Source of the DNA: Macrocystis pyrifera | Lineage: Eukaryota; Sar; Phaeophyceae; Laminariales; Laminariaceae | Assembly (NCBI GenBank): GCA_031763025.1 | Contig: JASSKH010000041.1 | Span: 1,860,001-1,924,000 of the forward strand | DNA length: 64,000 nucleotides | Reading direction: 5' to 3' | Part shown: piece after piece, positions 3,101 to 22,840 of the stretch | How positions within the stretch are numbered: position 1 is the stretch's first letter | Layout: every line of letters starts with the position of its first letter | Notes under the pieces: model-generated | Databases searched by the model: none | The model's input: the letters and a program-made list of their open reading frames with translations, nothing else | What the model was told of the DNA's origin: nothing | Position numbers and translations under genes: made by a program

Positions 3101-3104
3101 TCTT

Positions 3105-3770
3105 GCGCCGAGGAGAGGGGCAAAGTTGACGAATTCAGGACGGAGACGGCAGACAGGGTAGCAAGGTACCAGGCGGACTATTACGGGGGTCCATAGTTAA
3201 CGGGACCAAATTTTGTTAGTAAAAATAGGTAAATATATAGGTTTTTATGTATACCGTAGGTCCTATTAACTATGTACCCCCGTAGTAGCAGAGAAAACCT
3301 GGCTATGTTACGTGTACCACAAACTGATGCCGCTACCTGGAGGGTGCTTTGTGCTTCGGGTTGCCTGTGTTATTTTCCGTTGGTTCTTAGTCTCACTCTG
3401 TTTACAAGTAGTTGTGTTTTCATTTTTTTTTTCCAGCTCATTTTTTTCATGTGTCTGCCACATCCCCTGCGGGAGGGCACGACAGCAGTTTGTTCTTCTA
3501 TTTTTTTCCTTCTCTTTTTCTCTTTCAATTTGTCTCCTTTGTTTTCTTTCGTTTATGTCTTTCATATAATATGTGTGTCGTGCCTGTCGTATCGAGTATA
3601 ATGAACATGGCATTGCATTGTCCACTGTTGTGCGTACTGCATATCAGGTACGTCGCAACGCAGTGTCTGTGTGGAGGAGTTTCGTGACCACAGAATTTGT
3701 ATCTCTTTAGGATTGAAGAATCGGCACGGACACTGGTTGTGCTGGATGTGTGTGTGTTCTTCACGTTCTT
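3105..3770 (+). repeat. LINE 3' end copy interrupted by a MITE
   Basis: A third plus-strand LINE tail begins with peptide ADRVARYQAD near 3,145-3,180. It continues after an inserted MITE (3,182-3,284) with the UTR start near 3,285, pyrimidine tracts, and the conserved 3' end near 3,700-3,770 (ATCGGCACGGACACTGG and a CTGGATGT word). The MITE lies exactly between ORF tail and UTR, so it is a later insertion. Confidence 0.65.
3182..3284. mobile_element. MITE, copy 1 of 3
   Basis: A 103-bp non-coding element with imperfect terminal inverted repeats of about 25 bp. The left end begins TACGGGGGTCCATAGTTAA and the right end is the near reverse complement, ending CCCCCGTA. The flanking TA fits a TA target duplication, as made by Tc1/mariner-type transposases. 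Related copies lie at 22,738-22,840 and 35,871-35,967. No transposase is encoded here. Confidence 0.8.
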
Positions 3771-4745
3771 CTACTCGTCGACATCCAGCAAGCCCAGTGT
3801 CCGTGCTGATTCTTCACCCTAGAAAGATACGAGCTCTGTGGTCACAGACTACGACACAGAGATAACACACCGTAATGCATTAATAGCCTACGCAATACCA
3901 TGCCTTCGCACTAGGTGCGGCCGACACAACGTACACATACATGCGCCAGCAACCTAAATACACTATAAAGAAAGAGAAGCAACGAAGAAGCCAAACCGAA
4001 AAAGAAAAAGAAAAAGGAGAAGAATCCCAAATAATTAAATGAAATGGGAAGCCAAAGCTCAGACACATACATACTTACCCCGAGCATACGCCAAAAGGGA
4101 CGTGCAAGGGGGAAGAAACGAGAAGGAAAAAGGGAACTATGCATCCCGGGTGAACACTTAACTAAGTAAAAAAGAAAAAAAAATGAGTGGGCCAAAATAC
4201 GCTCGTCACCCACCCACTATGTAGTACCTCTTCATAAGGATAAGAAGGGGAAAATATAGAAAAAGTCAAGTCATAGAAAAAAAACAAAGCACCAAGCCAA
4301 TACATACCGAACGGCCGCAGCAGTTGGCGGTACGAGTAGCAAAGAGACGTCCAACCTATTAGTCGGCCTGGTACCTTGCTACCCTATCTGCGGTCTCTCT
4401 GCTACTCTCTTCTACCGTGGTTTCCCTTCTACTCCTCCTGTTCCCCCCCTTGCCCCCATACACTTGTACGGTGTTTCTTCCACCCCTCCAGCTGTTACCC
4501 TTCCCCCCATTCCCTCCAACACTACCCGCAGCGGATGCACGGCGCTGTCTACTCAGCTTTGCCTCTCAGCCTCGTGCCACCTGCCCATGAACTGTTCAGC
4601 TGCTTCGAGGATTCCCCGGTACCACTTTCCCGTCTGTTTTGCTGCAGTGGGCCACAGTGCGGTCCCAACTCCAAAGACTAAGGGGGAGTCCTCCTTTGAT
4701 CCCTCGGTGGCTTTGAACACTCTAAGGTCCTCGGCAATGGCCCTA
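3770..4745 (-). pseudogene. LINE C-terminal fragment plus 3' UTR
   Basis: A minus-strand copy facing the previous one tail to tail. From 4,745 down to about 4,370 the minus strand encodes the end of the LINE ORF: a PGGQ-K-W block, LVFGV-TALWPTAAK near 4,660, then KWYRGILEAAE near 4,610. From 4,360 to 3,770 follow the purine-rich UTR and the 3' end motif. Frameshifts are present and the copy is 5'-truncated. Confidence 0.7.
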
Positions 4746-4975
4746 GGCCAAGTCTTGGGCTGCCCGCCTGGATGTCGACGGGTAGAAAGAACGGTTTAAT
4801 GTGAAGAACACACGCCCTGTGCTTACTGCATGACGTAACAATGTAGTATCTCTTCTGTGGAGTAGTTTGTGACCACAAAACTTGCATCTCTCTGGGATTG
4901 AAGAATCGGCACGGACACTGGTTGTGCTGGATGTCGACGGGTAGAAAGAACGGTTTAATGTGAAGAGCACACACA
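4745..4975 (+). repeat. Two LINE 3' tail fragments in direct order
   Basis: Two copies of the 3' terminal LINE motif (a GGATGTCGACGGGTAGAAAG core followed by AACGGTTTAATGTGAAGA) at about 4,768-4,808 and 4,888-4,972. The second includes the upstream GAATCGGCACGGACACTGG part. They are 5'-truncated insertions or a local duplication. Confidence 0.7.
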
Positions 4976-5344
4976 TTATTGTCTACTCTCTTTACTGCAT
5001 AAACAGCACAATATACTATACCGCTGTACAGCAGTAGTAGCATCTCTGTGTCGTAGTTTTATTTTTTTTGTGCCTCACAGCAGTCTTGTGACCACAAAAT
5101 TCAAATGCATCTCTCTGGGCCGTGGGGTAAGGAGTCAGGACGAACACTGGATGTTGTTGCGTGATGATGCTGATGATGATGACGTTCTCACATTCACTCA
5201 CTTCCCTGAAATCCTGCCTGTGGTCACGAAAAAGGCTGCAGCAAAAATGCATCTCGACGGGAGAAAACAAATATATAACAACACGAAATAGTGCGAATGG
5301 CGGTACCATACCAGTCCGTAAGGGAAATGGGAACATTAACGACG

Positions 5345-5840
5345 AGCTGTGGTACTGCTACGCCTACTAGAGGGTGCTTTGTGCTTCGGTTTGCTTGTTA
5401 CTTTTCCTTTGCTCTTGATCTAACTCTGTTTATAATAGTATAGTAGTGTTTCTTCTTTTTAGCTCGTTATTTTCAAGTGTCTGCCACATCCCCTGCGAGG
5501 AGGCACGCCATTTTTTTTCTTTCTTTTTTTCCTTCTTCTCTTTCCGTTTGTTTTCTTTGTTTCCTTTGTTTTTGTTTGTTTTTGTTTTCTTTCGTTTTCT
5601 CGCTTTCATATAATATGTATGTCGTGCCTGTCATATCCAGTATGATGACATGGCATTGCATTGTCTACTATTAGTATCTGTGTGTGCTCACTGCTGTGCA
5701 TACGTGGCAACGTAGTATCTCTATGTGGCGTAGATTTGTGAGCACATAACTTTTATCTCTATTAATAGGACATACATTGAATCGGCACGGACACTGGTTG
5801 TGCTGGGTGTCGACAGGTAGAAATAACGGTTTAAGCAGAA
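5345..5840 (+). repeat. LINE 3' UTR copy
   Basis: Plus-strand copy of the LINE 3' UTR. It starts at the GAGGGTGCTTTGTGCTTCGG word (5,371), runs through pyrimidine tracts and a GTCTGCCACATCCCC word near 5,480, and ends at the conserved 3' motif near 5,778-5,838. No coding part is attached. Confidence 0.65.
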
Positions 5841-6640
5841 ATTGACACACGACACGAAATTGGAACGTGGAAGTGTAGTTTATTTTTTATTTTTACCAAT
5901 CCGCCGGAGGATACAAAAAAGAAGAAAAAAGAAGAACACACAAGCATACCATCCCGTATGACTTGAAACCAAATAACACCAAAACCAACCATGGTAATAT
6001 ATGTACACTCGAAAAAAAAAAAAAAGGAAGAAGAAAAAAGACAATCACGAAGAGAGAAAATTAAGAAGAAATAAGGTAGATCCTGTGCTCGTCGTTCGTA
6101 CCGATGTAGTCGCAGAGACGCCGCCGGGAAGAGGTCGCGGACAAGTGGCCGCGGTGAGGTCACGAGGCGAGGGTCCCTTTTGTAGCCGTCGGTACGGCCG
6201 ACGTAAGCCGAGCAGAATTCTCGCGTTGATATTTAGGAAGGAGATGCTAGACCTATTCTGACTCGGTGGGGAGGACTTAGGTCCCCCCAGAGTCTTGCAG
6301 CGGAATAATCTCCCGATAGCTATCTCCCGGGGACGGGTAAACACCGTCAATGACGTGAGACCGCTCGTGATGCGAGATCTGATATTGTTTGGGCGGTGAC
6401 GTGTTCTTTCGCGCGTGCGTGTTACGAGATCTACAATAGGTACATCCGACCCTGTCTTCCACAACAATAAAGGAAAGCCATATATTAATACAAGGTAATA
6501 AGAAAGAAAAACGAAGCAAACATGCGCTCAAGGCGCAGGCCGAGTCCGAAGGACAAGGTTTGCTGTTGGCTGGTACGATTATTAATAGTTGTATTACATG
6601 TCCAGCTGATGTACCAATGTAAGGACGAACGACAACACAC
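5840..6640. other. No gene recognised
   Basis: Unique-looking sequence with an A-rich tract at 6,009-6,090. A 140-residue minus-strand open frame (6,045-6,467) contains a FLNINAR peptide that faintly resembles the start of a LINE endonuclease, but no catalytic motif follows, so I do not call it. Confidence 0.4.
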
Positions 6641-7180
6641 AAAGAGCTTGTCGTATCTCTCTACGATTGAAGAACCGGCACTGACACTGATTTTTGTGCT
6701 GGATGTCGACGGGTCGACGGGTGAACAAAACCAGGGCTCTTGGTCATGGCCCGACCCGCAGTTTGTGTCAGCAATTTTTCGAAATCTCACCGATCAGGTC
6801 GGGTCGGGTCGGGTCGGGAGGTTTTCAACTCTCACGGATCGGGTCGGGTCACCCTTACTTACTCGACCCGACCCGACCTGACCCTAGAGGTTTAATCCGA
6901 CTCGTGAACAGCACTGGAAAAAACAGACACTCACAACACTGCAACACACAAGTGACGAACTCATCCAAATTGTGTTTCTCCTCAGCTTGTTTCCCTCGCG
7001 TGAAAATATACCGGGTACGTCAGCTGTACGAAAGTTGCCAATCGTCGGATAAATGCGTGTTGTGTGTTCTTCGTTTTTTCTGCCCGTCGACATCCAGCAC
7101 AACCAGTGTCCGTATCCATTCTTCAATCCTGCGAGATGCAATCTCTGTACTCACAAATGTGATGTGGTAGTGGGAGAGCA
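6640..7180. repeat. LINE tail fragments flanking a GGGTC inverted repeat
   Basis: Fragments of the LINE 3' end occur on plus (about 6,655-6,725) and minus (about 7,085-7,140) orientation. Between them, four GGGTC-type units (6,797-6,820), a short pair at 6,838-6,848 and their complements (6,860-6,886) form an inverted repeat of pentanucleotides that could fold into a hairpin. Confidence 0.6.
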
Positions 7181-8046
7181 GTAAGTTGTTGTTGTTGTTG
7201 TTTTCTTCACATTAAACCGTTCTTTCTACGCGTCGACATCCAGCACAACCAGTGTCCGTGCCGATTCTTCAAACCTAGAGAGATACAAGTTCTGTGGTCA
7301 CAAAGCTACGCCACAGAGATACTACGTTGCCACGTATGTAATGCAATGCCATGTCATCATACTGCGTACGACAGGCACGACATACACATTCCATGACCTA
7401 GAGAAACAAAAACGAAACAAAGAGGAAAAACAAAAACAAAAACAAAGACAATTCGAAAGAGAAAAGAAACAAAAAAAGAAACTAGATATACCTGGTATAT
7501 GTATATACTTCAGTATAGCAGCAAACCATCGTACCCCCACGTAGGGGACGTGGCAGACACTTGAAAAGAACGAGCTGGAAAAAAAAAAAAAGAAAAAGAA
7601 GAAAACACCACTAGTCGTCAACAGAGTAAGACTAAGAACCAAGGGAAAAATAACAGGCAAACCAAACAAAGCACAAGGCATGCTCCAGGTAGCGGCAGCA
7701 GTTTATGGTACGAGTAGCACAGCCAGGGTCTCCCTGCTGGCCCGCATGGTACCTTGTTACCCTGTCTGCCACCATCGTCCAGCGTTCGTCAACTATGCCC
7801 GGCCCCTCGGCGTCAGACAGTACGAAACAAGCAGAGCAGGCTCGTCATCCACCCACGCCACACGACTCCTTCAATAAGGCTTATCAATCGGAGAAAGGAA
7901 GAGAAATGAAAATCACATAGGGTCACCGCAAAGAAGACAATAAAATGAAATAAAAATAAACAAAAACAACAGGAATACAAAGGAAGACCACGTTCGAACC
8001 AGCTGCACCAGTTGGTGGTATGAGTAGTATAGGCATCTTCTACTTC

Positions 8047-8991
8047 TTAGTCTGCCCGGTACCTGGCTACCCTATCTGCCATCTCCTTCCTACTTTCGTC
8101 CACTGCAGTTTCCCTGCTACTCCTCTTCCCCCCCCTCTCCGCATTCCCTTGGTCGGGTTTTCTGCTACTCCTCTTGTTGCCCCTCCTCCCCCCATTCCCT
8201 TGGACACCACCCACGGCGGATGCGCGGCGCTGCCTGCTCAGCTCAGCCTCAGCCTCGTGCCACCTCACCATGAACCGTTCGGCTGCTTCCAGGATCCCCC
8301 GGTACCACTTCCCCGCCTTTTTTGCAGCAGTGGGCCACAGTGCGGTCTCAACTCCAAACACCAAGGGAGCAAGTTCCGTTGACCCTTCGGTGGCGCGGAA
8401 CTCCCTAAGGTCTTCGACTACGCATCTATGCCAAGTCTTAACCTGTCCGCCAGGTCTCGGGTTCTCCCCACCAGCAATCGTCCCGAACATCACCCGGCTG
8501 GGTAATCGATCCTTGCTTTGCCGTGCCACCCCCCCCGCGAAGAAGAGACGCCGTTTGCGGATGGTCGTTTCGATGCTCTCGCAACGTGTCATCTTGAGGG
8601 CCTTCGCGTACGAGAGGGTGGCATGGTCAGTACGAAGTCGGCGTTGGAAGCCAATGGCTCGCAACAGGACTTGGTGGTGAGCCGTTCGAAGCTTGGCAAA
8701 GTGTTCCGCTCTGAGGGTCCACGTCACACACCCGTAGAGCAGGGTCTCAATTACCTCGGCCTTCAGCATTCGGACTTTCAGGCTAAGGGGGGCGGTCGTC
8801 CTATCATACAGCTCCGGGCCGAACCGTTTGAGGCATGCTCGCATGAGACGGATCCGTCGGTCGATTTCGAGCGAGAGGTCAGCATTTTCGTGGATAACGC
8901 CGCCTAGGTACAAGAACTGGGCCGTCTGCTTATACCTCTGGCCTGCTGCTTCGATAACGAGCGGTGGTGCGAGGGTTTTCTGGTCTGGCGT
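8047..8991 (-). pseudogene. LINE ORF C-terminal part after an in-frame stop
   Basis: Continues in the same frame as the reverse transcriptase after a single TAA. Residues visible include FLYLGGVIHENADLSLEIDR, LLYGCVTWTL, RKRRLFFAGGVAR and KWYRGILEAAERF, then a lysine/arginine-rich tail ending YRAD. This region follows the RT thumb in RTE/L2-like LINEs and has no known catalytic motif here. Its tail peptide is the marker used to recognise the truncated copies elsewhere in the window. Confidence 0.8.
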
Positions 8992-10890
8992 TTATAGAAG
9001 CATAGTCTCTGTCTTCTTTTCCGACACCGTAAGGCCTGCTGCTTCGAAGACAGTCACGATGACTGTCATCATTTTCGAGAGCCCTTCAGCCGACTTCGAG
9101 ACAATCCCTGCGTCATCGGCGTACAACATGCCCCATACAGCCCTTCGCACGTACGCCAACGGCTCCTGCTCCTTCGTCCCGACTACTCCAGCATCACTAA
9201 GTTGGACCAAATCCCTTACGATTTCTTCGTCATGGCTAAAGCGTACTAGTACGACGTGCAACGCAGCAGCGAAAAATACGTTGAACAGTAACGGTGACAG
9301 CACACAGCCTTGCCGCAGCCCCTGCGTGACATCAAACCATTCCGAGTGCTCGCCGTCATCCGTACGCACGCGAGCCCGCATGCCATCGTGGAAATTACGG
9401 ATAATTCTCAGCATCTTGGTTGGTACGCCAAAACGTGTGAGTACTTCCCATAACAGCTCTCGGTCGACAGAGTCGTACGCTTTCTGCAGATCGATGAAGC
9501 ACAAGTACAGGGGGATTTTCCTCTGTCTTCCAAGCTCTTGCAACCGGCGCACGACGAACAACATATCAATCGTTGATCGTGCGGGGCGGAAGCCGCACTG
9601 TTCCTCCGGGAGTAATTCCTCGGTCTCGCAGTAGTTGCTGAGGCGCGACGCGACGATTTTCAACAAGACTTTGCCTGCGTGGGCAACCAGCGAAATCCCT
9701 CTGTAGTTGTTGCAATCAGTTCGGTCCTTCTTTTTGTGAAGGACCTTGATGATCGCGTCTTTCCATTGCTGGGGGACTTCTCCTGTTACCCAAACATTGA
9801 CAAGGATGTTGTGAAAGCACTGGGCGAATGCGGGGTGGTCGATTTTCAGGAGTTCGGCCGGGAGACCATCTGGCCCGACAGCTTTCCAGTTTGACATCCC
9901 CTTAAGTGCTTCCGTCATCTCGTCCATGGATGGTTCATCTCCGAGCGACAGTTTAAGCGGTCGTGGTGGCAAGAGGTCGATGATCGTGGAATCGAGTTTA
10001 AGCGATTTCGTGTTCAAAAGTTTGTGGTAAAACCTCCCCCACCGTTCACGAATTCGCACCTTATCCCGCAACAGCGTGCCATCCTCGTCCCTAATGAACT
10101 GTTCGCTTCTCGCTTTAGTCCCTTCCAATCCTACCGTACTCTTAAGGTGCTTGTAAAAGCCTCTCTGGTCGTTGTTCGCTAGTAGTCGTTCGGTTTCAGC
10201 GAGGTACGCTTCGAAGTACGCATGCAGTCCTGCGGCAATCACCTTCTGCAAGTTCGCACACGCAGATCTCAGTGTCTTCCACGCGGTTCTATTCTGGGGG
10301 TGGGCACGCAAGAATTGCCGTGCATCCTCCCTCGCTGTCCATGCTAATATGAATGCGGTCACGGTTTCGGCAGACTCACACCATCCATGTCTGCGGTGGC
10401 GACGTGGAGGGGGTGGTACCTCTTTTTCGACCGCATCAATAATAGCCGCAGTGAAAAACTCAACCATGCCAGACGTATTACGGGGCTGGTTAGGCTGGTT
10501 GAGAGTGGAGATGACCCTCGCGACTACTCGTTCACGACACTTTCCATCGGACATAAAAAGCTGCCTGTCGAACTCTCGGCGTTTTGTCGGTCTACGTATT
10601 TGTCTGTTGGACGCAAAGTGACCACTGAGTCGGACTTTGACATACAAGATGTTGTGGTCTGAGTCAGCCTTAGCTGGGGCAGGAGGCTGTGGGACGACTT
10701 TAACATCTTGTACTCTAGGTCGATGGGCTTGACGGGTTAGGATGTAGTCGATCCGCTTACGGTCACTCGGGCTGGTGCCGTTGTGTGTATGCGAAATCCC
10801 ACCCTTGCGCGTGCTGAAAAACGTGTTGGTGAGAGCTAACTTGCAATTGGTGGCGAACGACAGGAGTCGTCTGCCATTATAAGGGTTCCA
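8992..10890 (-). CDS. LINE endonuclease end and reverse transcriptase
   Basis: Encodes the machinery for target-primed reverse transcription. The upstream end (about 10,890-10,650) carries the C-terminal APE endonuclease signature: a RIDYIL block followed about 27 residues later by SDHN, whose histidine is catalytic in this family. The 551-residue stretch from 10,647 then shows the reverse transcriptase blocks in order: [60 protein letters not shown] and the catalytic [10 protein letters not shown]. There is no start codon: the endonuclease N-terminus is missing because the copy is 5'-truncated. The frame ends at a TAA (8,992-8,994), but the same frame resumes directly after it with conserved residues, so this stop is a recent point mutation. 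Confidence 0.85.
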
Positions 10891-11099
10891 CGGGATGATG
10901 ATCCACAGAAGAAGTGTGACACAGGTGTCTGTGCTTGGTCAAACTCAGACCTAGTTCTTATTGGAGTTCTCTTCTTTTATTGGTGCGAGGCTTGCTCAAA
11001 AGGGGCAATTGAGAAGAGTGAGGAGAGGGGGGGGGGGGGGGAGCACGTGCTTTTTGAAGCCAGGAGAATCCTCTGGCTTCAACCTGCTATATTCTACTG

Positions 11100-11408
11100 G
11101 CAAGGGTGCATGCGCCACCCTCACTTCAATAGTGCAACGTCCCGTAAAAGTGCATGCGTTGCCCTCAACTTCAATAGTACAACGCCCCGTAAGGGTGCAT
11201 GCGTTGCCCTCAACTCCAATAGTACAACACCCCGTAAGGGTGCATGCGTTACTCTAAACTTCAGTAATACAACACCCCGTAAGGGTGCATGCGTTACTCT
11301 AAGCTTCAATAGTACGATAACCCATGAGGGAACATACGATACTCTAAACTTCAATAGTATAACACCCCGTAAGGGTGCATGCGTTATTCTCAGCTTCAAT
11401 AGTACAAC
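11100..11408. repeat. 45-bp minisatellite, about 7 units
   Basis: Tandem repeat with a GCATGCG word at 11,108, 11,152, 11,197, 11,242, 11,287, then degenerate at 11,332, and again at 11,377. Spacing is 44 bp once and 45 bp otherwise. Because 45 is divisible by three, both strands stay open and give artificial repetitive ORFs. No sign that either is translated. Confidence 0.85.
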
Positions 11409-11459
11409 CTACTAACCTGTATACCAGGTACCAGATTCTACAGATATACCAGTCTGCGT

Positions 11460-11600
11460 GTCTACAGATATACTAACCTGCGTATCGACAGATATCAAAT
11501 GGTAAACAGGGTACGACCCGACTGGAACAATATTAGCCTGCGTATCTACAGATATCAAATGGTAAACGGGATACGACCCGACTGGGACAATAATATTTAA
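11460..11600. repeat. 60-bp tandem doublet
   Basis: The block CTACAGATATCAAATGG followed by a TACGACCCGACTGG word occurs twice with exactly 60-bp spacing (TACGACCCG at 11,512 and 11,572). It directly abuts the left terminal repeat of the Ty3/gypsy element. Confidence 0.75.
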
Positions 11601-11651
11601 CGGCCCCTACTGATGGTTGGTCTATTGACTACCAACCAAGGTACTCTATCA
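11601..11651 (-). repeat. 51-bp terminal direct repeat, 3' end of element
   Basis: Identical in all 51 bases to 21,879-21,929. Read in element direction it begins TGATAGAGTACC and contains a hairpin with 7-bp arms (GGTTGGT and ACCAACC) around a 9-base loop. The flanks differ completely from those of the other copy on both sides. Confidence 0.85.
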
Positions 11652-12706: not shown

Positions 12707-14200
12707 TCACCAGAGACCATCGCGGGCCTTGTACCAGAGGTGTGCCCCGGCAGGTAAAGGTGAGGAGCTGAAACGGTGAAGCCAGAGGGTGCGTGGTACG
12801 AGGCTGTATCCGGGAGCGAGGAAGATTTCGCCCAGGAACCGCGAAAGTTCACGGTGAGCGGCCCCGATGCGCATCTGGCGGTGTAAACGGTTGGTCTGGC
12901 GATGCTGTGAAGGGTTTCCCGACCAATAGCGGAGGGTGTGGGGTCGGTGGAGCTGTAGGTCACGTTCGTGTTCCCAAGAAGGGCTAAGGAGCCCGGCCCA
13001 GTGTGTTTCGTACATCACGGCGAGAACGCCTCCCCGACCACGAACGAGTTGGTGTCCCGAGATCTGGTCGACCTCGAGGCGTTCGGGCGGTGGAGCGATA
13101 TCGTCGAAGGTGACGTGGAAGGGCGGGGACTTGGTGGAGAAGGAGCTGAGAACGTACTTGGTCAGGTCGGCCGGTAGGTGTTTGGGGAGATCGTCGATGT
13201 CGTCGGGGTTCCGGCAGGGCTTGCAGCGGAGGACGGAGACGCGGTGCTTGGAGTCCCGCCCCGGCATGTCCGAGGGAAGGTCGAAGTACAGGAGCTTGTC
13301 GTGAAGGGGCCGTCCGTCTGGAACGGCTGAGGCTGGTGCTGGGCCCACGGCAAGAATCTTGAACGGGCCAATCCAGTTGAAGGAGAGTTTGGTCTTAAGA
13401 ACGGTGGCGTCGGTGCCTTTCTTGGCGCCCTGTCGAATAGTGGCAGCTGTGTTGTAGATCCATGCCCAACCGCCGACAGAGAACGGAGGGGAAAGGCGGA
13501 GGGCGTCCATGATGGGTGCGTTGCGTCGGTCGAGGCGTGAGACGTAGACCGCGTGGAGTTCCCGGACGGCGCGGTAGGCGCGTTGCTGGCGAGCAGTAGT
13601 GAGGTAAATGTTAGCGAGCTGGTCCCGGTTGAGGCTTTGATGTCCGCCGATGTTGGGGAAGTCGAACACGGTGAGGGGGAAGCGAGGTAACTGGCCAATA
13701 TGTACTTCGTTGGGGGCCAGCCCGGTCGCGGCGCTGACGGAGTTGTTGTAGGCGCTTTCGACGTGAGGAAGATGCAAGTCCCAATCGTTTTGTAGTTCGT
13801 TTCCGACCATGGCGAGCATCAGGGCCATGGTGTGGTTAACACGTTCGACCCCGCCGTTGGTGCAGGGGTGGTAAGAGCTTGTGGAGATTTGGTTGATGCC
13901 GAGCCGCTCATAGAGGGCGCGGGAGAGTTTGGCGCAGAATTGTGGACAATTGTCGGAAAGGAGAGTAACGGGGCATCCCCAGAGAGGGATGTAGCGGTCC
14001 ATGAGGATATCGGCTGTGCCGGATGCGGTGAACTCGGCCTCAGTAGTGGCGTACATGTCGGCGTGGCGGCTGAAGCGGTCGGTGAAAAGTAGAATATAAG
14101 CTTTGCCCCGAGGCGTGATGGGTGAGGGGCCGAAATAGTCGACGCTGACGAGAATACCGGGGCCGTTTGGTAGCGGCAGGGAGAGGGTGGCCAACGAATT
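12707..14200 (-). CDS. Integrase catalytic core with chromodomain-like C-terminus
   Basis: Inserts element cDNA into the genome. In the frame ending at 12,707 the catalytic triad is visible: Asp in SVDYFGPSP (near 14,135), Asp in LLSDNCPQF (near 13,950) and Glu in GGVERVNHT (near 13,845), spaced as in retroviral-type integrases. A GPFKIL block (near 13,355) and basic stretch follow. The C-terminal part (about 13,080-12,910) reads as a chromodomain: QISGHQ at its start, YETHWAG, PSWEHERDL and LRYWSG, the pattern that defines chromoviruses. The frame opens upstream of 14,200, but upstream codons are the wrong frame: the zinc domain lies in the neighbouring frame, so a frameshift separates them near 14,180. 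Confidence 0.85.
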   Translation of the reverse strand, partial: NSLATLSLPLPNGPGILVSVDYFGPSPITPRGKAYILLFTDRFSRHADMYATTEAEFTASGTADILMDRYIPLWGCPVTLLSDNCPQFCAKLSRALYERLGINQISTSSYHPCTNGGVERVNHTMALMLAMVGNELQNDWDLHLPHVESAYNNSVSAATGLAPNEVHIGQLPRFPLTVFDFPNIGGHQSLNRDQLANIYLTTARQQRAYRAVRELHAVYVSRLDRRNAPIMDALRLSPPFSVGGWAWIYNTAATIRQGAKKGTDATVLKTKLSFNWIGPFKILAVGPAPASAVPDGRPLHDKLLYFDLPSDMPGRDSKHRVSVLRCKPCRNPDDIDDLPKHLPADLTKYVLSSFSTKSPPFHVTFDDIAPPPERLEVDQISGHQLVRGRGGVLAVMYETHWAGLLSPSWEHERDLQLHRPHTLRYWSGNPSQHRQTNRLHRQMRIGAAHRELSRFLGEIFLAPGYSLVPRTLWLHRFSSSPLPAGAHLWYKARDGLW

Positions 14201-17016
14201 GTTTGGCGTGAAGACTTTCGCGCCTGACACTTGAGGCAGCGGCGGAGCCACCAGCGGGTGGAGATGTCCATGCCGATCCACCAATAGAAGCGCATAAGCA
14301 TGCTGAGTGTCCGAGCAACACCCAGGTGGCAAGAGGTGGTGGAGTGGCAAGTGTGTAGGACCCACGGTCGCATCAACATTGGGACGTAAATGCGAGGTGG
14401 CGATGTGAGGGATTGCGGTGCAGTCGTACGAGGTTGGCCCAGGGGGGTTGTGTGTGGTCGGTAAACGAGAAGAACTGTGTCGTCGTCGGTTGTATGCAGC
14501 TGGCCTTTCGCGGCGAGGGCGAGGACCTCCGAGAGAAGTGGGCGACGGGTCGAGGGAATGTAGTCCAAGAGGTCGCCCGGTGGTGGTGAAGGTGAGCCCA
14601 AGGAAAGATATCGTATGGTAGCTGAGCAAAGGGGTTCGGTGCGTTGTTCGCGCGCCCAATCGGTGGAGGTATAACGCTCAACGCGGGAACAAAGGTGTGG
14701 GTCGTCAGCAGACCGGACAACGGGTTCAGGTAGAGGAAGTGGCTGAGTAGGGGAGGGCGGGGGAGAAGGCCCTGGGGCGGTAGACTGTGGTGGTGGCAGG
14801 GACAGTGGTGGCGTAGCGTCGGCTGGAGTCGCTGGTGAGGGCGAGTCTTGAGCGGCGCCGCGATGAGCTGTATCCGGTCGTCGCGGCAGTGGCCTGGGTG
14901 CGACGGCAGATGAGCGGCGGTGGGTTGGTGAGGGTCTTGTGACTGCCGTAGTTGACGATCGACGGCCAAATCCGTAGTCCGTAGGGGTAAGGGGGGTCCC
15001 AGCAGCAGCGGCAGAACGGCGACGGGTCCGAGAAGAAATTAGGCCTGACGAGGTACGAGGGGTGGCCGAAGGTACGACGCCCAAGGTGGGCGATGGCGAG
15101 ACGAAGGGTGGCCTGAAAGCCACACCAGCAGGAGCGCCAGCGGTCACGGCGGCTTTCTCGGAGCTGGGAGGCGATTCGGCGATGGAGTCGAGGATAGAGA
15201 GGTGACCGATGAAGGCGCTGCGAAGCGAGTTGACGGTGGGGTCTTGGGCAAGGCGGGGACCGGCGGGAAGGCTGCGAGGCGGTCCAGCGGCGGGATCTTG
15301 AGCAAGGCGGGGGCCGGCGGGGAGGCTGCGAGGCGATCCAGCGGCAGTGTCTTGAGCAAAGCGGGGACCGGCGGGAAGGCTGCGAGGCGATCCAGCGGTG
15401 GGGTCTTGGGCAAGGCGAGGACCGGCGGGAAGGCTGCGAGGCGGTCCAGCGGCGGGATCTTGAGCAAGGCGGGGGCCGGCGGGGAGGCTGCGAGGCGATC
15501 CAGCGGCAGTGTCTTGAGCAAAGCGGGGACCGGCGGGAAGGCTGCGAGGCGATCCAGCGGCGGGGTCTTGGGCAAGGCGGGGGTCGGCGGGAAGGCTGCG
15601 AGGCGATCCAGCGGCAGTGTCTTGAGCAAAGCGGGGGCCGACGGGAAGGCTGCGAGGCGATCCAGCGGCAGTGTCTTGAGCAAGGCGGGGGCCGGCGGGA
15701 AGGCTGCGAGGCGATCCAGCGGCAGTGTCTTGAGCAAGGCGGGGGCCGGCGGGAAGGCTGCGAGGCGATCCAGCGGCAGTGTCTTGAGCAAAGCAGGGGC
15801 CAGCGGGAAGGCTGCGAGGCGATCCAGCGGCAGTGTCTTGAGCAAGGCGGGGGTCGGCGGGAAGGCTGCGAGGCGATCCAGCGGCAGTGTCTTGAGCAAG
15901 GCGGGGGCCGGCGGGAAGGCTGCGAGGCGATCCGGCGGCAGTGTCTTGAGCAAGGCGGGGACCAGCGGGAAGGCTGCGAGGCGATCCAGCGGCAGTGTCT
16001 TGAGCAAGGCGGGGGCCGGCGGGAAGGCTGCGAGGCGATCCAGCGGCAGTGTCTTGAGCAAGGCGGGGGCCGGCGGGAAGGCTGCGAGGCGATCCAGCGG
16101 CAGTGTCTTGAGCAAGGCGGGGGCCGGCGGGAAGGCTGCGAGGCGATCCAGCGGCAGTGTCTTGAGCAAAGCAGGGGCCGGCGGGAAGGCTGCGAGGTGA
16201 TCCAGCGGCAGTGTCTTGAGCAAAGCGGGGCCCGGCGGGAAGGCTGCGAGGCGATCCGGCGGCAGGATCTTGAACGGTGGTAGAAGTTACAGTAGAGCAG
16301 GGGGTAAGAACCAAGTCCGAGTTGTCCATACGTGGTCCGTGTCGGCGGAAATCGCCAAAGTCGTTTTCGGTGCAAGGGAGTGGTCGGATGGTGTCGCAGG
16401 GGGCGGTTGAGGGTGGGACAAGCCCACCCAAGCCGATGCCCGGGGTGAAGGGGTCGACCGGAGTAAAACCGCAGGCTTGGATAAGGTAGATGCCGATGGT
16501 GTCGGGAGGGGTGAGGCGGTTGGGTCCGGTGCGGTCGAGATCGGTTGCTGGTTGTGGGAGTCGCGACAGGAAATCGGCATTGCCGTTAGCTGAGCCTTTT
16601 CGGTACTCCAAGGTGTAGGAGTAGGCGGAGAGGAATTCCAGCCAGCGCTGGACGCGAGCGTTGTGTTCGCCGACTTTAGCGATACTCGCAAGCGCCTTGT
16701 GGTCAGAGTAAATGTGGAACTTGGTGGACCAGAGGTGGCCGCGGAGGCGTTTGATGGCCCAGACGATGCTACCGGCTTCGAGGTCGAGGGGGGTCCAGGA
16801 TCGTTCGTTGCCGAGGGTGGTGCGGCTGATAAAGACGATGGGACGAACGGAACCGTCGAGTTGTTCTTGTTCGAGTGTCGCGCCAAAACCGTCGATGCTG
16901 GCGTCGCAGTAGAGGCGAAAAGGTCGGGAGTTGTCAGCAACGGCGTCCCAGTCGGGGTATACCAAGATCGGGGGGGTAGCGAGTTCGTGGAGGATCTGGC
17001 GAACGATTGTTTCCAT
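14200..17016 (-). CDS. Pol: RNase H, 18-residue repeats, integrase zinc domain
   Basis: One long frame (13,819-17,016). The N-terminal part is RNase H (about 16,930-16,550) with YCDASIDGFGATLEQ, a SWTPLDLEAGSIVWAIKRL block, YSDHKAL and a GSANGNADFLSRLP end, as in Ty3/gypsy. It is followed by about 19 copies of an 18-residue repeat (15,236-16,273), then a proline-rich stretch. The integrase H2C2 zinc motif comes last (about 14,360-14,210: LHTCH, CHLG, CLKCQARK). RNase H degrades the RNA strand during replication and the zinc motif supports integrase assembly. Codons downstream of about 14,180 are out of frame and only a shadow. The repeat insertion is unusual (see findings). Confidence 0.85.
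15236..16273 (-). repeat. 54-bp coding tandem repeat, about 19 units
   Basis: Near-identical 54-bp units, each coding 18 residues of the type AQDTAAGSPRSLPAGPR plus one variable residue in the Pol frame. Because 54 is a multiple of three, all frames are open on both strands, which creates a 332-codon plus-strand ORF and other artefacts. Units differ by a few substitutions (for example T/P after D), so the array has diverged since amplification. Confidence 0.9.
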
Positions 17017-17159
17017 TTCCGGGGTGAAAACGAACTTAACGCCTTGTTTGAGCAGGGCGTTAATGGGTCGGAGCCGAGTGGAGAGGTTCTTCAGGAATTT
17101 ACGGTAGTGCTGCCTCCGAGGAGTGAGCGCACTTGCTTGGTGTTCGTAGGCATGGGCAT

Positions 17160-18270
17160 CTAAGTTAGGGCGGCAACCTTGTCGGCGTTAGGGCTAACGC
17201 CGGAGGAGGAAATGGTGTGTCCCAAAAAGTCGGTGCTGGTAGCGCCAAGCTTGGCTTTGGACGGTGAGAGCTTGAGGTTGTGTTTTTGAAGGCGTTCGAA
17301 AAGGGAGCGGATATTGGCGACGTGGGCCGTGGGGTCGGGGTCGAAAACTATGACGTCGTCGAGGTAGGCCGCTACGCGGTTAAGGTCTCTGATGACCTCG
17401 TTGATGACCTTGACAAACCAGCCGGGCGCGGCGCTGCTGCCTTGGGGCATGACGAGCCACTCGAAGAGTCGGGTGGGCGTGCAGAAGGCAGTCAGGGGTA
17501 TGGTGTCCTTGTCGATGGTGATCTGGTGGAACGAAGACACGAGGTCGAACAGGGAGAAGATGCGGCCTTTACCGAGGGAGTCGAGAACCTCGTCGACGCG
17601 GGGGATGGGCAGTTGACCCAGGGAGCTGATGGCGTTAAGCTTTTTGTAGTTCACGGTTATCCGAACATTGCCGTCTTTCTTGGGAATGGCGACCATAGGG
17701 CTGGCGTACGGGGAAGTGGAGTGTTGGATCAGACCGGCAGCCAGATATTGGTCGAGTACAGCGTCGGCTTTTTTGGCGAGGATAGGGTTGATCCGGTAAG
17801 GGCGGGAAAATACGGGGGCGCTATCCGGGGGGATAGAAATCTTAAACGGAATAAGGGAGCACGAGCCGAAGTCGGTTTTAGACGTGGAGAAAACGTCGGG
17901 AAACTCGCAAAGAACGTCCCCAGAGCTGTGATGACCGAAGGGGACCAACCAGAACCGCGGAGGTCGAAGGAAATTTCGCGGAGGTGTAGCGGAAGTCGGT
18001 CCCAGAGGCGGAGGAAGCTTGTCCGTTGTCCGGCAGTTAGGCGTTCCAGGAGTTTGGGGCAAGGGGTCTTGGGGGGATCCGCGGGGGGGTGTACCGTCGT
18101 CATGCACGGGGATGTTGTCGTGCAGGGCGTGAATGTCGATAACAGCTGGGGCTGGAGGTGACGTTGCGGGGAGACCTTGCAGTGCTGATACCGGAATTTG
18201 TATGAGGGGAGAGGAGGTAGTCCCCAGAAGGTCGCCTGGTTCAAGATCAGTGAATCCCGAGAGCGGGATA
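17160..18270 (-). pseudogene. Pol: reverse transcriptase
   Basis: Copies element RNA into DNA. Diagnostic blocks in the frame ending at 17,160: FSRPYRINP, SPYASPMVAIPKKDG, RITVNYKKLNA, GRIFSLFDLVSSFHQI, TRLFEWLVMPQG, the catalytic AAYLDDVIVF (YLDD, near 17,350) and DFLGHTIS. This is a standard Ty3/gypsy RT. The frame stops (TAG, 17,160) after NADKVAALT, where conserved RT thumb sequence should continue into RNase H. The expected continuation resumes in other frames between 17,150 and 17,016, so at least one stop and one frameshift inactivate it. The first 90 codons of the open frame (18,533-18,260) are out of frame with the protease and probably not translated. Confidence 0.85.
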
Positions 18271-19668
18271 TTTTTGGTAGCCGTTGGCGACGAAGATTTC
18301 GGTTTCGGAGTCAAGGCCGTCGCGGGGAAGCATGTCAACGAGGTAGTGGCCGGTGGGTGTCGGAATGCCGGAGGGACGCACCAGATTAACCTGGACGAGG
18401 GACGGCGTAGCCGAAAGGGATATTGCGTGAGCGCCGGCGAACACGAGGTGTAGGGTGTCGAGAGAAGGTCGGTCGTCGTGGATGAAAGTGGAGAGACCAT
18501 TCTTGTAAGAAGTGGTAAGGGAAAGCTCGCCAAAGAGCGGTCGCGAGGGGAGGCGAGGCAGGGTTACGTACGTGCGTTGTTCGAACCGCATCCAGCTATC
18601 GCGTCCTAGTAGAACGGGGTGTTGCATAGTCCCATGTGACACGATGCACGCCCATACGGCGAGCTCGGCGGAGGGAGTGCTGTCGTGCAAGAACTGGATG
18701 CTGAGTCGGACGGAAGTCGACGTGAGGAGCGGAGCGGATTTGCCAAAGCCGCCCCAAGAACGTGGAGGGGCGAGTCGTTCGCAGATGTCCGACGCAGCGT
18801 TGTTGCGCTTCATACGGGCCCAAGCTTCAGCGGAGATGAAGGTCTGGGGGGAGCCGGTGTCCAAGAGAGCTATAAGGCCGTAGCGGTTGGATGCAGAGGG
18901 TCCACTGTGTACTCTGATCCTGGTCGTGAAGGAGGCGTCGTCGACGGTAACGATACCGCTCGAGAGGCCTGGTCCGTGTTCGGCAATGAGGGAGGGGAGC
19001 GCGGAAGGGAGAGCAGCTCCGGACGAAATGGCAGAGACCAATGCGTGCGGAAGAGTGGCCTCAGGAAGGAAAGGAGGCAGTAAGTGGTCCAACGTGGAGG
19101 GCGGTGTAGAAGCTGGAACGGGTGCGTTGATCTCGTGGATCCCATTTTCTGAAGGTGAGATGCGGGAGGCGCGGGGGGTGGGCGGGATTGGAGGGGGGGA
19201 GGCAAGCTGGTGGCGGATCCTCATGAGGATGTCGCCCAACAGGTTGAGTCCCGGCCAGTGTGGAGGTTGTAGGGCTCGTGTATCGTCACACCTGAGGCCG
19301 ATGCCCCAGACGAGGTCGTAAGGACTTGCTTCGGCGAGGAACTTGTCGTCGGTGTGTACGAGTTGTTGTAATAAAGGAGGAGCCGAAAACTTGGCGTTGC
19401 CCTTGAAAACGATGTCGTACCTATGCTGTATCCAAATATCTTGATTAAAATTGGAGATGGAGCGGCCGAGGCGTTTTTGGTGTGCGGGAGTCGGGGAGGA
19501 CATGATCTTCCGGCGAGTTGCTATGTCGCCAAAAAGTTTGGCCTTTTCCGACATCACGTACTGTTCCGCACAGTTGTAGTGCTCGTTGTCTACGGTGAAC
19601 GTCGAAGGATACCGCTGGGAAAAGACCGAGGAATGATCCCAAAAGAAAATAATTTGGGAGGGGCTCAG
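18247..19668 (-). CDS. NADAR-like domain fused to aspartic protease
   Basis: Two parts in one open frame. The NADAR domain (formerly DUF1768, YbiA-like) spans about 19,650-19,203: FFWDHSSVFS, CAEQYVMSEKAKLFGD, KRLGRSISNF, a KFSAPPLLQQL-T block, LAEASPYDLVWGIGL and LNLLGDILMRIRHQL, the full set of conserved blocks over a normal domain length of about 150 residues. Known NADAR proteins act on ADP-ribose adducts or related riboside metabolites; activity here is inferred. The protease part has the catalytic motif ALLDTGSPQTF (near 18,870) and a VLLGRDSW block near 18,610, as in retroviral-type pepsins. The frame is open upstream of the first ATG (19,557), which lies inside the NADAR domain, so the true start is further upstream. 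It ends about 290 bp inside the frame of the RT. Confidence 0.8.
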   Translation of the reverse strand: MSPSQIIFFWDHSSVFSQRYPSTFTVDNEHYNCAEQYVMSEKAKLFGDIATRRKIMSSPTPAHQKRLGRSISNFNQDIWIQHRYDIVFKGNAKFSAPPLLQQLVHTDDKFLAEASPYDLVWGIGLRCDDTRALQPPHWPGLNLLGDILMRIRHQLASPPPIPPTPRASRISPSENGIHEINAPVPASTPPSTLDHLLPPFLPEATLPHALVSAISSGAALPSALPSLIAEHGPGLSSGIVTVDDASFTTRIRVHSGPSASNRYGLIALLDTGSPQTFISAEAWARMKRNNAASDICERLAPPRSWGGFGKSAPLLTSTSVRLSIQFLHDSTPSAELAVWACIVSHGTMQHPVLLGRDSWMRFEQRTYVTLPRLPSRPLFGELSLTTSYKNGLSTFIHDDRPSLDTLHLVFAGAHAISLSATPSLVQVNLVRPSGIPTPTGHYLVDMLPRDGLDSETEIFVANGYQKYPALGIH

Positions 19669-20583
19669 GGTCGAAGGGAGTGGGGAGGGGGACGTTGTGT
19701 GGGACGTTGGCGGGGAAGGCGTGGGTAAGACGACTTTGCTCCCCGCAAACGTGTGGGGTGGGGTCGATTGTGACGAGGCCCCGGGAGGATGTACGTGACG
19801 GCGAGACGCTCGTGACGGAGCACCCTGGGAGTCCCCGCTATCAGCATTTAACGTATGCGGAGGGGGGGAGTAACTCGGAAGAACATGCAGTACCTGTAGT
19901 TGTCCGTGACCGGGGTGTGGGTGTCGGTACAGGTGGCTCCTGGCATAATCTTGGTGACTTGGTCGAGTCTTCTGCGGTTGAATCTGCGGGAAAACCGTCC
20001 CTTGGGCCCAGGGAGAGTGGTGTGGTCAGCACGGGGCAAGCAGCTACGAGTCCGGGAGACCTTCAGAACCAACGGAGGTCGAAGTATGTGCTGTCCGGGG
20101 TCGACGGACGCCGGTTGGCGTGTGCCGATAACATCGTTCGTCAGAGGACGTAGATGAGTTGTGAGTCGATGGCCCTGGGGGAGGAGCAGAGCCGGAGAGG
20201 GAGTGGATACCGCTGTTGGCCGTCGTTGTCGTGTCGCCCACAAGATTGGCAAGGTCCGCAGACATTTCAGCAATGTTGGGCAAGGCGCGGCGTCGCGCAT
20301 CGACTGGGGACACCGAGGGGAGCGTTGAGGGAGTGCTCGGTGTGCCCGCCTCCTCCTGCCCACACCTCAAACCAACCGCTTGAACAAGGGAGCCAACCCT
20401 AGATCGAGGGGTTGATATTGAAGATAGGTTAAAAGGGGGGGAAAAGGAGGGGGGGGGGTCGGGAGAGTAAGTAGGGCCGGCGGCTCCTAAACAATACGCT
20501 GTCCGAGGGTCCAGAGAGGTACCCGGCGCGATCGCGTGTAGTGCCGTTGGTGAAGTCGCGAGCGGTTCTTCACCATCGGCTGG
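19669..20583 (-). other. Spacer between Gag and the NADAR-protease frame
   Basis: Proline, serine and threonine-rich open frames on the minus strand (for example 20,044-20,370). No domain is visible. It may be a linker of the Gag-Pol polyprotein carrying frameshifts. Confidence 0.4.
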
Positions 20584-21867
20584 TCAGTTAGTACGGAAGG
20601 TGCCCGGTTGCCGGGAGTTTTGATTGCCTCCGTGTTGTGAAGGACCGAGACGCATGTTAGCTGGGGTAGTGGGGGTCTGGTTTGTGGGACCGGTTACGGT
20701 GAGGGCAGATGAGGGAGGTCCTTGAGGGGGGGGGGGGGTGAGCTGTGGTGCCGAATTATCCCGGGAGTGGTGCTTGTTGGGAGAGTAGTTGGTCCACTGG
20801 GAGCCTGTAGTACGGTTGGAGTTGCCGTGGGGGCGCTCGTTTTTAGAATGGGAGTTGGACCGGCGGTTGTTATTGGGATTACCGGCAGAGTTGTGTCCCC
20901 TCGAGTTGAAACGCTTGGAATAAGAGTTCGAGTTCCGATGAGCATGGCGTTCATATTGTCCCCGACGGTATGAGAGCATACGTTGTTGCCACTGTTGAAA
21001 AGCGTAGCCTCCGTCATTGAGCTGTCCGAGCCTGGGGTTGTGTATACCTGACTTGTTTATGAAGGGGCTTTGACACGTTTTTACGCTGTGGTCCTGTCCG
21101 CCGCAGTTGAGGCATACGCCACGCCATGTGCGAAGAGCAGTCGCTCTGGCAGTAGCGCCAAGGAGAGGGCTCCAGAGGGGGGGATCGGTGGTCGAAAAAG
21201 TGGTAGATACCATGTACACTTCGTCGAAGTGTTCGAGAGGCCAGTGGTTGTAACCCAGAGTGAAAGGGTCAATGTCTGGGGACGTAGAGACGTTCATGAC
21301 ATAGGGGTTGCGTTGGGAGCCTTGTTGGTTTGGATTTGAATGATTGCGCGAACGCGTCTGCTGAGCAGGAGCCGATGACGGCGGGGACGACGAAAACGTC
21401 GTGTGGCCTCCGGGGGAGGTATAAGAAAAATATTTTTCGCCATTTATGGCAGGTGTATTATTCGTAGCGTACACTTCGTGAGCCTGCCACATGGCTGAGA
21501 CCGAAGGGAAAGGTTCCACCGCAGTCATCAATTCACCCGGATACAAAACCGGGGTCAATGCAGGAAACTGTCTACTAACACTCGTCCGAACTACCTCTAA
21601 CACCATGGCGTCGCTAGGCTTGAAGACCTTTTCAGAACCTTGTACTACCGATGTCAACTCCCTCAAAGCCCGCAAATAAGTTGAATACACCGTTCCAGTT
21701 GGTACTCCGAATGCCTGAAGCTTCTCGAATGCGCGACCTTGGTCGCCGTGGTCGAAGTGCGTGCTCAGCAAACGCAAGAGTAAGCGAAAGGCAGATGGGC
21801 CGGCATTGTCCTTCTCCCGAAGGTGATCGCGCACCTGCTTAAAAAAGTTGTTGATAAGGAGGGACAT
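20584..21867 (-). CDS. Gag-like protein with CCHC zinc knuckle
   Basis: 427 residues from the first ATG (21,867). Structural protein of the retrotransposon particle. The N-terminal half has the helix-rich character of gypsy-type Gag. A single zinc knuckle, CLNCGGQDHSVKTC (C-x2-C-x4-H-x4-C, near 21,110-21,070), is the nucleic-acid binding motif. The C-terminal third is rich in Asn, Ser, Arg and Gln, then proline, suiting RNA binding. The start lies only 12 bases from the 5' terminal repeat and the frame continues a short way upstream into that repeat, so the N-terminus could be truncated. It is the least damaged ORF of the element. Confidence 0.8.
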   Translation of the reverse strand: MSLLINNFFKQVRDHLREKDNAGPSAFRLLLRLLSTHFDHGDQGRAFEKLQAFGVPTGTVYSTYLRALRELTSVVQGSEKVFKPSDAMVLEVVRTSVSRQFPALTPVLYPGELMTAVEPFPSVSAMWQAHEVYATNNTPAINGEKYFSYTSPGGHTTFSSSPPSSAPAQQTRSRNHSNPNQQGSQRNPYVMNVSTSPDIDPFTLGYNHWPLEHFDEVYMVSTTFSTTDPPLWSPLLGATARATALRTWRGVCLNCGGQDHSVKTCQSPFINKSGIHNPRLGQLNDGGYAFQQWQQRMLSYRRGQYERHAHRNSNSYSKRFNSRGHNSAGNPNNNRRSNSHSKNERPHGNSNRTTGSQWTNYSPNKHHSRDNSAPQLTPPPPQGPPSSALTVTGPTNQTPTTPANMRLGPSQHGGNQNSRQPGTFRTN

Positions 21868-21878
21868 CGGGGAGTTGG

Positions 21879-21929
21879 CGGCCCCTACTGATGGTTGGTC
21901 TATTGACTACCAACCAAGGTACTCTATCA
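21879..21929 (-). repeat. 51-bp terminal direct repeat, 5' end of element
   Basis: Identical to 11,601-11,651. It ends 12 bases before the Gag ATG, leaving no room for a usual leader. This suggests either a very short terminal repeat or a 5' deletion. Confidence 0.85.
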
Positions 21930-22445
21930 CACAAAACTACGACACGGAGATACTACACTGCTGTCTACTATGCGTACTGCATACCAGTATAGCAGTAGTA
22001 GTGCAACACCACGTCATCGTACTTGGTACGACAGGCACGGCGTACACATATGTGTAAAAGAGACAATAACCGAAAGGAACAAAGGAAATATAATCAATCG
22101 GGGAAACGAAAAGAAACAAAAAGGTGTCGTGCCCCCCAGAAGGAGATGTGGCAGACAACACGAAAAACACGTCACCAAATATATGCCCTCAAAATGAACG
22201 AACTCACCACATATAGCTGAGTACGACCACGAACGAACCCGAGGAAAAAAACAGGCAAGCCGAAGCACAACCAAACAAAACAAAAAACACGCTTGAGGCA
22301 GCCGCAGCAGTTTGTGGAACGAGTAGGATACACAGGTGTGTGTTCTTCACATTACGAGGTATACACTGTTCTTTCTATCCGTCGACATCCAGCACAACCA
22401 GTATCCGTGCCAATTCTTCAATCCTAGAGTACAAGTTCTGTGGTA
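21930..22445 (-). repeat. LINE 3' UTR copy
   Basis: Minus-strand copy of the LINE family 3' UTR. It spans the GTCGTGCCCCCCAGAAGG word near 22,122 and the GCAGCAGTTTGTGGAACGAG word near 22,304. A separate tail fragment with the GTCGACATCCAGCACAACC word lies at 22,381-22,440. No coding sequence. Confidence 0.6.
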
Positions 22446-22484
22446 ACAAAACTACGTTACAGAGATACTACTACAATAGTACAC

Positions 22485-22700
22485 TGTAAAAAAAAAAATA
22501 TTTCAAAAAAATAAATGAATTAAAATTTGAAAAAAATTAGAAATAAAATTATTAACATGTATAAATAAATTTTGAAACTTAAATAAAGCGTTGGCGGGGG
22601 CCCTTGCTCAATTTGCGAATAAAAGAAAAATAGTACCCCGGACAATTCCTACTTCAATAATAGTGCATTTTGTCTACAATTGAAGCTGTGTGTTAATTGC
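22485..22700. other. AT-rich stretch, no gene
   Basis: A strongly AT-rich block (22,485-22,590) unlike its surroundings, followed by ordinary sequence. No ORF, repeat or RNA gene is recognisable. Confidence 0.5.
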
Positions 22701-22737
22701 GAGTATCCAGACAAATTGGTTTTAGTGACAGTACTAT

Positions 22738-22840
22738 TACGGAGGAACATAGTAAATAGGACCAAATATTGTTTGTAAAAATAGGGAAATATGTAGGTTT
22801 TTGTGTGTACCGTAGGTCCTATTTATTATGCCCCCCCGAA
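22738..22840. mobile_element. MITE, copy 2 of 3
   Basis: Same family as 3,182-3,284: the internal AAAAATAGGGAAATATGTAG word and the right part ACCGTAGGTCCTATT are conserved, while the terminal repeats have drifted. It lies upstream of the decayed second LINE. Confidence 0.7.

Follow-up and report, generated by a model that had tools for sequence, protein, structure and literature searches.

A NADAR domain directly before the aspartic protease in the Pol of a degraded Ty3/gypsy retrotransposon from giant kelp

The window, i.e., the whole stretch of 64,000 nucleotides of Macrocystis pyrifera (giant kelp) DNA that was analyzed, carries on its minus strand a retroelement in which an ADP-ribose-related NADAR domain lies between gag and the aspartic protease (Table 1). 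Protease, reverse transcriptase (RT), RNase H and integrase follow one another, with RT, RNase H and integrase arranged as in Ty3/gypsy elements. The assignment to Ty3/gypsy, which had been made from the letters alone, is borne out by this gene order and by the LTR ends and target duplication of another copy (see below). The gag, NADAR-protease and RNase H parts were found in one frame that is broken by stops, and RT and the integrase core were found in other frames. A complete 5' LTR is missing as well; the window copy is dead and degraded.

Table 1. Parts of the element in the window, listed from its 5' to its 3' end (positions of the window)
Feature	Position	Strand	Evidence or remark
5' LTR remnant, first 53 bp	21879..21931	-	deletion joins the remnant directly to gag
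gag frame	20584..21906	-	one CCHC knuckle at 21073-21114; 5' sequence deleted in the window copy (by comparison with copy L062)
Same-frame stretch from the gag stop to the NADAR-protease frame	20044..20583	-	open-frame listing
Open frame with NADAR and protease	18247..20025	-	stop to stop, 592 aa
NADAR domain (PF08719)	19204..19647	-	residues 127-274 of the 592-aa frame; Pfam E 4.2e-39
Retropepsin-like aspartic protease	18583..19005 (outer limits approximate)	-	motifs and Foldseek; in the frame of NADAR
Reverse transcriptase (RVT_1)	17211..17687	-	Pfam E 1.5e-28; frame differs from that of NADAR-protease
RNase H	16621..17028	-	Pfam RT_RNaseH E 8.7e-29, RT_RNaseH_2 E 1.4e-19
54-bp (18-aa) tandem repeat array in the RNase H/integrase interval	15055..16380	-	coding frame open through the array
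Integrase zinc-binding domain (H2C2)	14209..14385	-	Pfam E 6.2e-13
Integrase core (rve)	13865..14167	-	Pfam E 1.7e-8
Chromodomain-like stretch 3' of integrase	12956..13069	-	by eye; no Pfam match up to E 1
3' LTR	10880..11651	-	corresponds to the 5' LTR in L061 and L062; last ~28 bp unrecognizable

The protease was recognized by the minus-strand motifs LLDTGS (18850-18867) and LLGRDSWMRF (18583-18612) and by its predicted structure; Pfam gave no protease match at E 0.01 in the 592-aa frame. The RT carries the motif YLDDVI (17349-17366, minus strand). The 54-bp array occupies 20 register positions, encodes an 18-residue repeat of SPRSLPAGPRLAQDTAAG type and is crossed by long open frames in several frames on both strands.

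The ends of the element were defined by comparison with other copies in the genome. A perfect 51-bp direct repeat is present at 21879-21929 and 11601-11651. That it represents a whole short terminal repeat was ruled out by the LTRs of three other copies (L061-L063), which are roughly 720-880 bp long. In a copy on contig C200, ∼1.6 kb lie between the 5' LTR and the point matching window position 21878, which indicates that, of the 5' LTR and leader of the window copy, deletion has spared only the first 53 bp. The LTRs of the C200 copy run from TGTG to CACA, and two segments of them that exclude the repeats are 97.0% (228/235) and 94.8% (237/250) identical; TTTG flanks this one copy on both sides, a target duplication within the 4-6 bp range. 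A 45-bp tandem array (11078-11437) lies within the LTR of the window; judging from alignments of other copies, it seems to vary in copy number.

To identify the domain upstream of the protease, we searched the 592-aa frame against Pfam. The PF08719 match scored 134.8 bits against a curated cut-off of 35.1 and covers profile positions 1-162 of 163; the domain is confirmed as a full-length member of the NADAR superfamily. The sequence-only reading had claimed a complete-looking NADAR domain at 19203..19668, with its motif blocks in order and upstream of an in-frame aspartic protease. The profile match falls inside that span, the blocks are present in the translation (three of the four located by position), and LLDTGS is encoded in the same frame. 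Among PDB sequences the only relative of the frame at E 0.001 was 8bau (E 8.3e-16), itself a NADAR. Residues 110-520 were modeled with AlphaFold from a 64-row alignment (mean pLDDT 79.2, pTM 0.47, linker of low confidence). Foldseek matched the model to 8bau, the Phytophthora nicotianae NADAR with ADP-ribose (E 1.9e-10, TMt 0.72), and to 2b3w, E. coli YbiA (E 1.4e-7, TMt 0.74); the matches of its protease part were retroviral proteases (retropepsins) or Ddi1 proteases. The profile search and structure prediction that had been proposed as checks thus agree with the earlier identification, and the predicted fold is that of NADAR/YbiA.

We next mapped the window NADAR onto 8bau. The equivalents of the active-site residues are all present (E154, K161, R188, W198, R202, E232, D237, and W240), and these are the positions described as ADP-ribose contacts in known NADARs (PMC11543638). 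In the same work, E43, K50 and the residue structurally equivalent to E125 were reported to be important for the removal of ADP-ribose from guanine, on the evidence of mutants of the E. coli C7 enzyme. The retro copies counted here are the 61 proteins with both NADAR and protease, plus a maximum of eight fragments that have NADAR only and closely resemble the window copy, P0089 included. They keep E43 in 38/39, K50 in 51/54, R79 in 52/56, W89 in 54/58, E125 in 64/66, D130 in 62/66 and W133 in 61/67 cases, so that most of the ADP-ribose-contacting residues are invariant. The R93 equivalent is split: of 58 retro copies, 27 have C and 26 have R at this position (C in 13/111 other NADARs), and substrate handling may therefore differ. 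For the sorting of proteins by domain content described below, 70 of the 119 full free NADARs were used. The E125 position is glutamate in the YbiA, aspartate in the BC4488 and histidine in the phage subfamily (PMC11543638, PMC11125620). With E232 at this position, the window NADAR is of YbiA type. It has the fold, the subfamily glutamate and the ADP-ribose-contacting residues in common with 2b3w and 8bau; these two are free-standing enzymes, whereas the window NADAR is a domain of a Pol polyprotein.

To estimate how widespread the arrangement is, we searched the host genome (537,376,219 bases, 223 contigs) and public sequence. All 150 NADAR candidates that were scored, out of 1264 in the host genome, pass the curated cut-off. 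The best 30 of these loci have a protease downstream on the same strand in 30/30 cases and in the same frame in 19/30, a few of them looking like mutual duplicates. By closest query they are mostly of the B type defined below, with L017, L018, L026 and L028-L030 of the A type, like P0002/P0007/P0008. At the DNA level, the 2.1-kb stretch 18300-20400 of the window has at least 42 matches in the host genome (40 of 446 candidates scored), and at least 34 of the 42, window included, cover it entirely, the others being 93-98% identical. A one-off capture or an assembly artifact is ruled out by these near-full matches and by the protease at all of the best 30 loci.

In public sequence, at least 79 proteins match the window frame, 61 with NADAR and protease, four with NADAR only and 14 with protease only. 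The two domains co-occur down to 34-40% identity with the window. NADAR comes first in 56 of the 61, and the match spans of the other five put NADAR elsewhere. In one relative, P0200, representing a cluster of 415 sequences, a single frame of 1616 aa holds NADAR, the LLDTGS protease motif, RT and RNase H with no stop. Since the NADAR-protease stretch recurs in the genome and in other public sequence, it is not a product of chance. The sequence-only reading had proposed looking for the same fusion in related elements, and had named a one-off capture as the finding that would speak against it; recurrence across families removes that objection. A profile search of public proteins returned at least 733 matches, and PF08719 was present in 117 of the 120 rows listed, a figure that is biased because the query itself held NADAR. 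Two of the remaining three rows have a NADAR stub, and P0272, without a NADAR match, seems to begin downstream of NADAR.

None of the 14 protease-only proteins shows absence of NADAR. By position, thirteen have their start at residue ∼246 of the frame or later, which places it within the C-terminal end of NADAR or further on, and P0056, P0065 and P0074 open with what appears to be the last NADAR helix. In the Undaria gene model P0072, gag is joined to protease and the position of NADAR is left out; annotation may hide NADAR in this way. We concluded that NADAR belongs to Pol as a regular component, in frame and immediately ahead of the protease, and is intact in most of the copies sampled. On viral contigs, neither of two candidate stretches was related to the element. 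One protein labeled as NADAR family from a Paracoccaceae metagenome-assembled genome (P0089) is 78% identical to the window NADAR over 61% of the domain, and is possibly algal retrotransposon DNA that was binned in a bacterial genome.

A fusion of NADAR to Gypsy has already been reported in Ectocarpus, and the kelp element is not the first. According to the description published in 2025, all families of one of four Ectocarpus Gypsy lineages, e.g., Gypsy-12_Ec32, share a conserved NADAR of the YbiA family in the N-terminal region of Pol (PMC12477816). What is added here is the kelp member, its scale, the constraint tests, the retention of the active site and the grouping of one retro clade (B) with free-standing brown-algal genes. 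The kelp element and the Gypsy-12_Ec32 lineage are both Ty3/gypsy elements of brown algae with a YbiA-family NADAR in that place, which in the window and in P0200 is before the protease. The hosts differ (giant kelp and Ectocarpus), and the likeness is one to the published description. The integrase of Gypsy-12_Ec32 is described with a putative C-terminal chromodomain (PMC12477816), and the window has a look-alike found by eye that falls below Pfam detection (Table 1). The window is best explained as a degraded copy of a brown-algal, NADAR-carrying Ty3/gypsy element of the Gypsy-12_Ec32 kind, as judged from domain content and order. Other parallels are a Tx1 LINE of Crassostrea gigas, also a retroelement with NADAR, in which the domain is divergent and lies in ORF1 of a non-LTR element (PMC12477816), and polyproteins of positive-strand RNA viruses, in which NADAR is likewise embedded in a genetic parasite that is an RNA virus and not a retroelement (PMC9503650).

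Ectocarpus Gypsy lineages are also described as carrying chromatin-reading domains (PMC12477816). By analogy, NADAR could be a binding module that recognizes ADP-ribosylated chromatin, protein or RNA and acts in targeting or packaging, with no hydrolysis; its fixed place before the protease would suit such a structural or targeting part. Against this, the residues kept in the retro copies include those relevant to catalysis, beyond those for mere binding (PMC11543638), and we regard a pure binding role as rather unlikely.

We then examined whether NADAR is under constraint. In six between-family pairs, NADAR dN was 0.42-0.46, compared with 0.72-1.06 in the linker and 0.29-0.43 in the protease. 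The corresponding NADAR dS was 2.7-2.9 or saturated, so that an exact dN/dS ratio cannot be given. These pairs are perhaps flattered because some of the loci (from L001-L030) were chosen by NADAR score. Between families, the constraint on NADAR nearly equals that on the protease. Close copy pairs gave NADAR dN/dS of ∼0.2 to 0.9, e.g., 0.018/0.020 for the window and L032.

Within the family of the window, variants were collected from 30 copies, i.e., the window plus 29 of the 33 further near-full matches. Singleton variants in NADAR numbered 62 nonsynonymous, 24 synonymous and five stops, which looks like neutrality (pN/pS 0.96), and shared, older variants numbered 29 and 20 with no stop (pN/pS 0.54). 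The shared ratio of 29:20 departs from the neutral 2.70:1 with a one-sided binomial P of 0.025, NADAR being one of five regions looked at. In these 30 copies shared and singleton variants did not differ significantly (Fisher P 0.13), nor did the shared variants of NADAR differ from those of the stretch before it (25:9, P 0.24). That stretch (pN/pS 1.24) is open in only 3/30 copies and may be non-coding. The protease showed stronger constraint (14:19, P 0.0006, pN/pS 0.30). The frame remains open through NADAR in 20/30 copies and through the protease in 27/30; the NADAR lesions in the other ten copies are each private, with none shared. This pattern suggests that copies decay after insertion while the source lineage kept NADAR, and the within-family numbers alone are no proof of it. 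Of the selection on NADAR that the sequence-only reading had proposed to look for, the between-family part is clear relative to the linker, and the signal within the family of the window is modest and weaker than that of the protease.

These data bear on whether NADAR is a captured gene that rides along as a neutral passenger without function. The weaker constraint on NADAR than on the protease within the family, the lack of a significant synonymous excess among shared variants relative to singletons, and the smaller number of copies with NADAR open than with protease open would all fit such a passenger. It is hard to reconcile with the persistence of NADAR and protease together in 61/79 proteins down to 34-40% identity, with low between-family dN relative to the linker, with the kept active site, or with 0 shared lesions among 30 copies. 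We consider a passenger highly improbable; NADAR appears to be kept by selection.

The origin of the domain was addressed with NADAR trees, the first of 78 rows. For the second tree, some of the free rows were dropped along with six B rows, and identical kelp rows were collapsed. The two trees took 44 and 27 other NADARs out of the at least 733 matches (120 listed). Retro NADARs formed two groups, A with the window (support 97/90; 92/86 with kelp rows added) and B. Three rows classed as free (P0080-P0082), which lack a protease match, were reassigned to group A on account of their position beside the window in the tree. Retro clade B and five free-standing NADARs (two of Ectocarpus, one each of Scytosiphon and Pylaiella, and one eukprot protein; P0083, P0084, P0098, P0109, and P0149) formed one clade with support of 99/94, or 100/94 with kelp loci, although AU tests did not reject a retro B without the host genes (p 0.41; 0.36 with kelp loci). 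Neither did they reject one clade for A, B and the host genes (p 0.43) or A with B without the host genes (p 0.33). Clade A stood apart from B in the NADAR trees, with no free-standing sister resolved. In the protease tree, a 13-row set with the A group of the window had 99 SH-aLRT and also held seven protease-only rows and P0014, which had been assigned to B by default; such a set around the A group is expected if NADAR and protease traveled together.

The five free-standing NADARs stand alone, with no protease match, although they group with retro clade B. An N-terminal zinc finger was found by pattern in P0083 and P0098; inspection by eye showed a similar finger in P0084 and P0109. A kelp exon at C192:4191627 (L068, G000 C192:4186200-4192200) carries the same zinc finger and the start of NADAR and ends at a GTAAGT donor; the rest of this NADAR gene was not found within ∼5 kb downstream. 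Three more zinc-finger matches of this kind are present on C211 (L065-L067), with no NADAR match nearby. Since the kelp host gene looks intron-bearing and the retro frames do not, the comparison leans to capture by the element. That the free-standing brown-algal NADARs and retro clade B share a close ancestor, through capture of a host mRNA or domestication of an element, is a proposal for which we see the chances as evenly balanced; the kelp copies indicate that one retro clade is related to brown-algal genes. It was reported previously that blast matches of the Ectocarpus NADAR outside Ectocarpus are almost all bacterial, and horizontal transfer was suggested as possible (PMC12477816); the free-standing relatives that join clade B here are, in contrast, brown-algal. 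A stress-induced free-standing NADAR gene of Ectocarpus, Esi0017_0056, is available for comparison (PMC7922944).

What the domain does may be considered from the known activities of NADARs. Our tentative preference, which falls somewhat short of an even chance, is that the NADAR of kelp and brown-algal Pol is a YbiA-type hydrolase that is freed by the protease and likely removes ADP-ribose from guanines of element RNA or cDNA, or of nearby host nucleic acid. If made within Pol, NADAR would be packaged together with RT and the genomic RNA, and the neighboring protease would release it to act as a YbiA-type ADP-ribose hydrolase. The most likely target would be guanine-ADP-ribose on element RNA/cDNA or on host nucleic acid nearby, with the outcome that ADP-ribosyltransferases of the host or of a parasite would not block reverse transcription or translation. 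A position within Pol would be a good place for cleaning of template or cDNA. Of three hydrolase families that were assayed, only NADARs reversed guanosine-linked ADP-ribose in RNA; their action extends to DNA (PMC11833690). In the kelp data, a hydrolase is favored by the shared frame with the protease, the fold, the layout of P0200, the protease at all of the best 30 loci, the kept active site, the private nature of the lesions and the between-family dN. The modest within-family signal, the dN/dS of close pairs, the 20/30 open copies and the C/R split at R93 count against it, as does the lack of a DarT match. DarT (PF14487) was not detected in the host genome (0/1) by a six-frame, intron-blind search whose control was positive in 1/14 genomes. 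In DarT1-NADAR systems, NADAR reverses guanine ADP-ribosylation; it is of the BC4488 subfamily, whereas the window NADAR is of YbiA type.

A small-molecule role should also be considered, in which NADAR cleaves free ADP-ribose derivatives or signals from host NAD-consuming enzymes, or riboside intermediates, and thereby quiets an alarm or supplies a metabolite. Phage NADARs have been argued to target mostly soluble ADP-ribose derivatives, and NADARs have also been described as N-glycosidases of riboflavin intermediates (PMC9503650). The same source favors macromolecular targets for the NADARs of eukaryotic RNA virus polyproteins, and the NADARs that were assayed reversed guanosine-ADP-ribose (PMC11125620, PMC11833690); we consider the small-molecule role unlikely, yet worth serious attention.

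A counter-defense role of the element NADAR had been suggested by the sequence-only reading, and it would be one extension of the de-ADP-ribosylating hydrolase proposed above. In its strongest form, which we regard as doubtful, the Gypsy NADAR is an eraser that shields element RNA/cDNA from nucleic-acid ADP-ribosylation by the host, and movement of the gene between element and host makes both sides of one conflict. If so, the free-standing brown-algal NADAR genes and the retrotransposon NADARs would be these two sides. Through an abundant and testable domain, the element connects the ADP-ribosylation of nucleic acids, a subject familiar chiefly from toxins of bacteria and from phage defense, to retrotransposons of a multicellular eukaryote. 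The kelp copies provide a large sample for constraint tests.

The surroundings of the element in the window were also inspected. A second RT frame, perhaps of a LINE, lies at 8992-10938 on the minus strand (RVT_1 E 2.1e-34) and adjoins the 3' LTR. Diverged direct and inverted repeats are common to 1400-8450 and 22000-22840, the latter bordering the element on its upstream side; the element would therefore seem to be embedded in other repeats.
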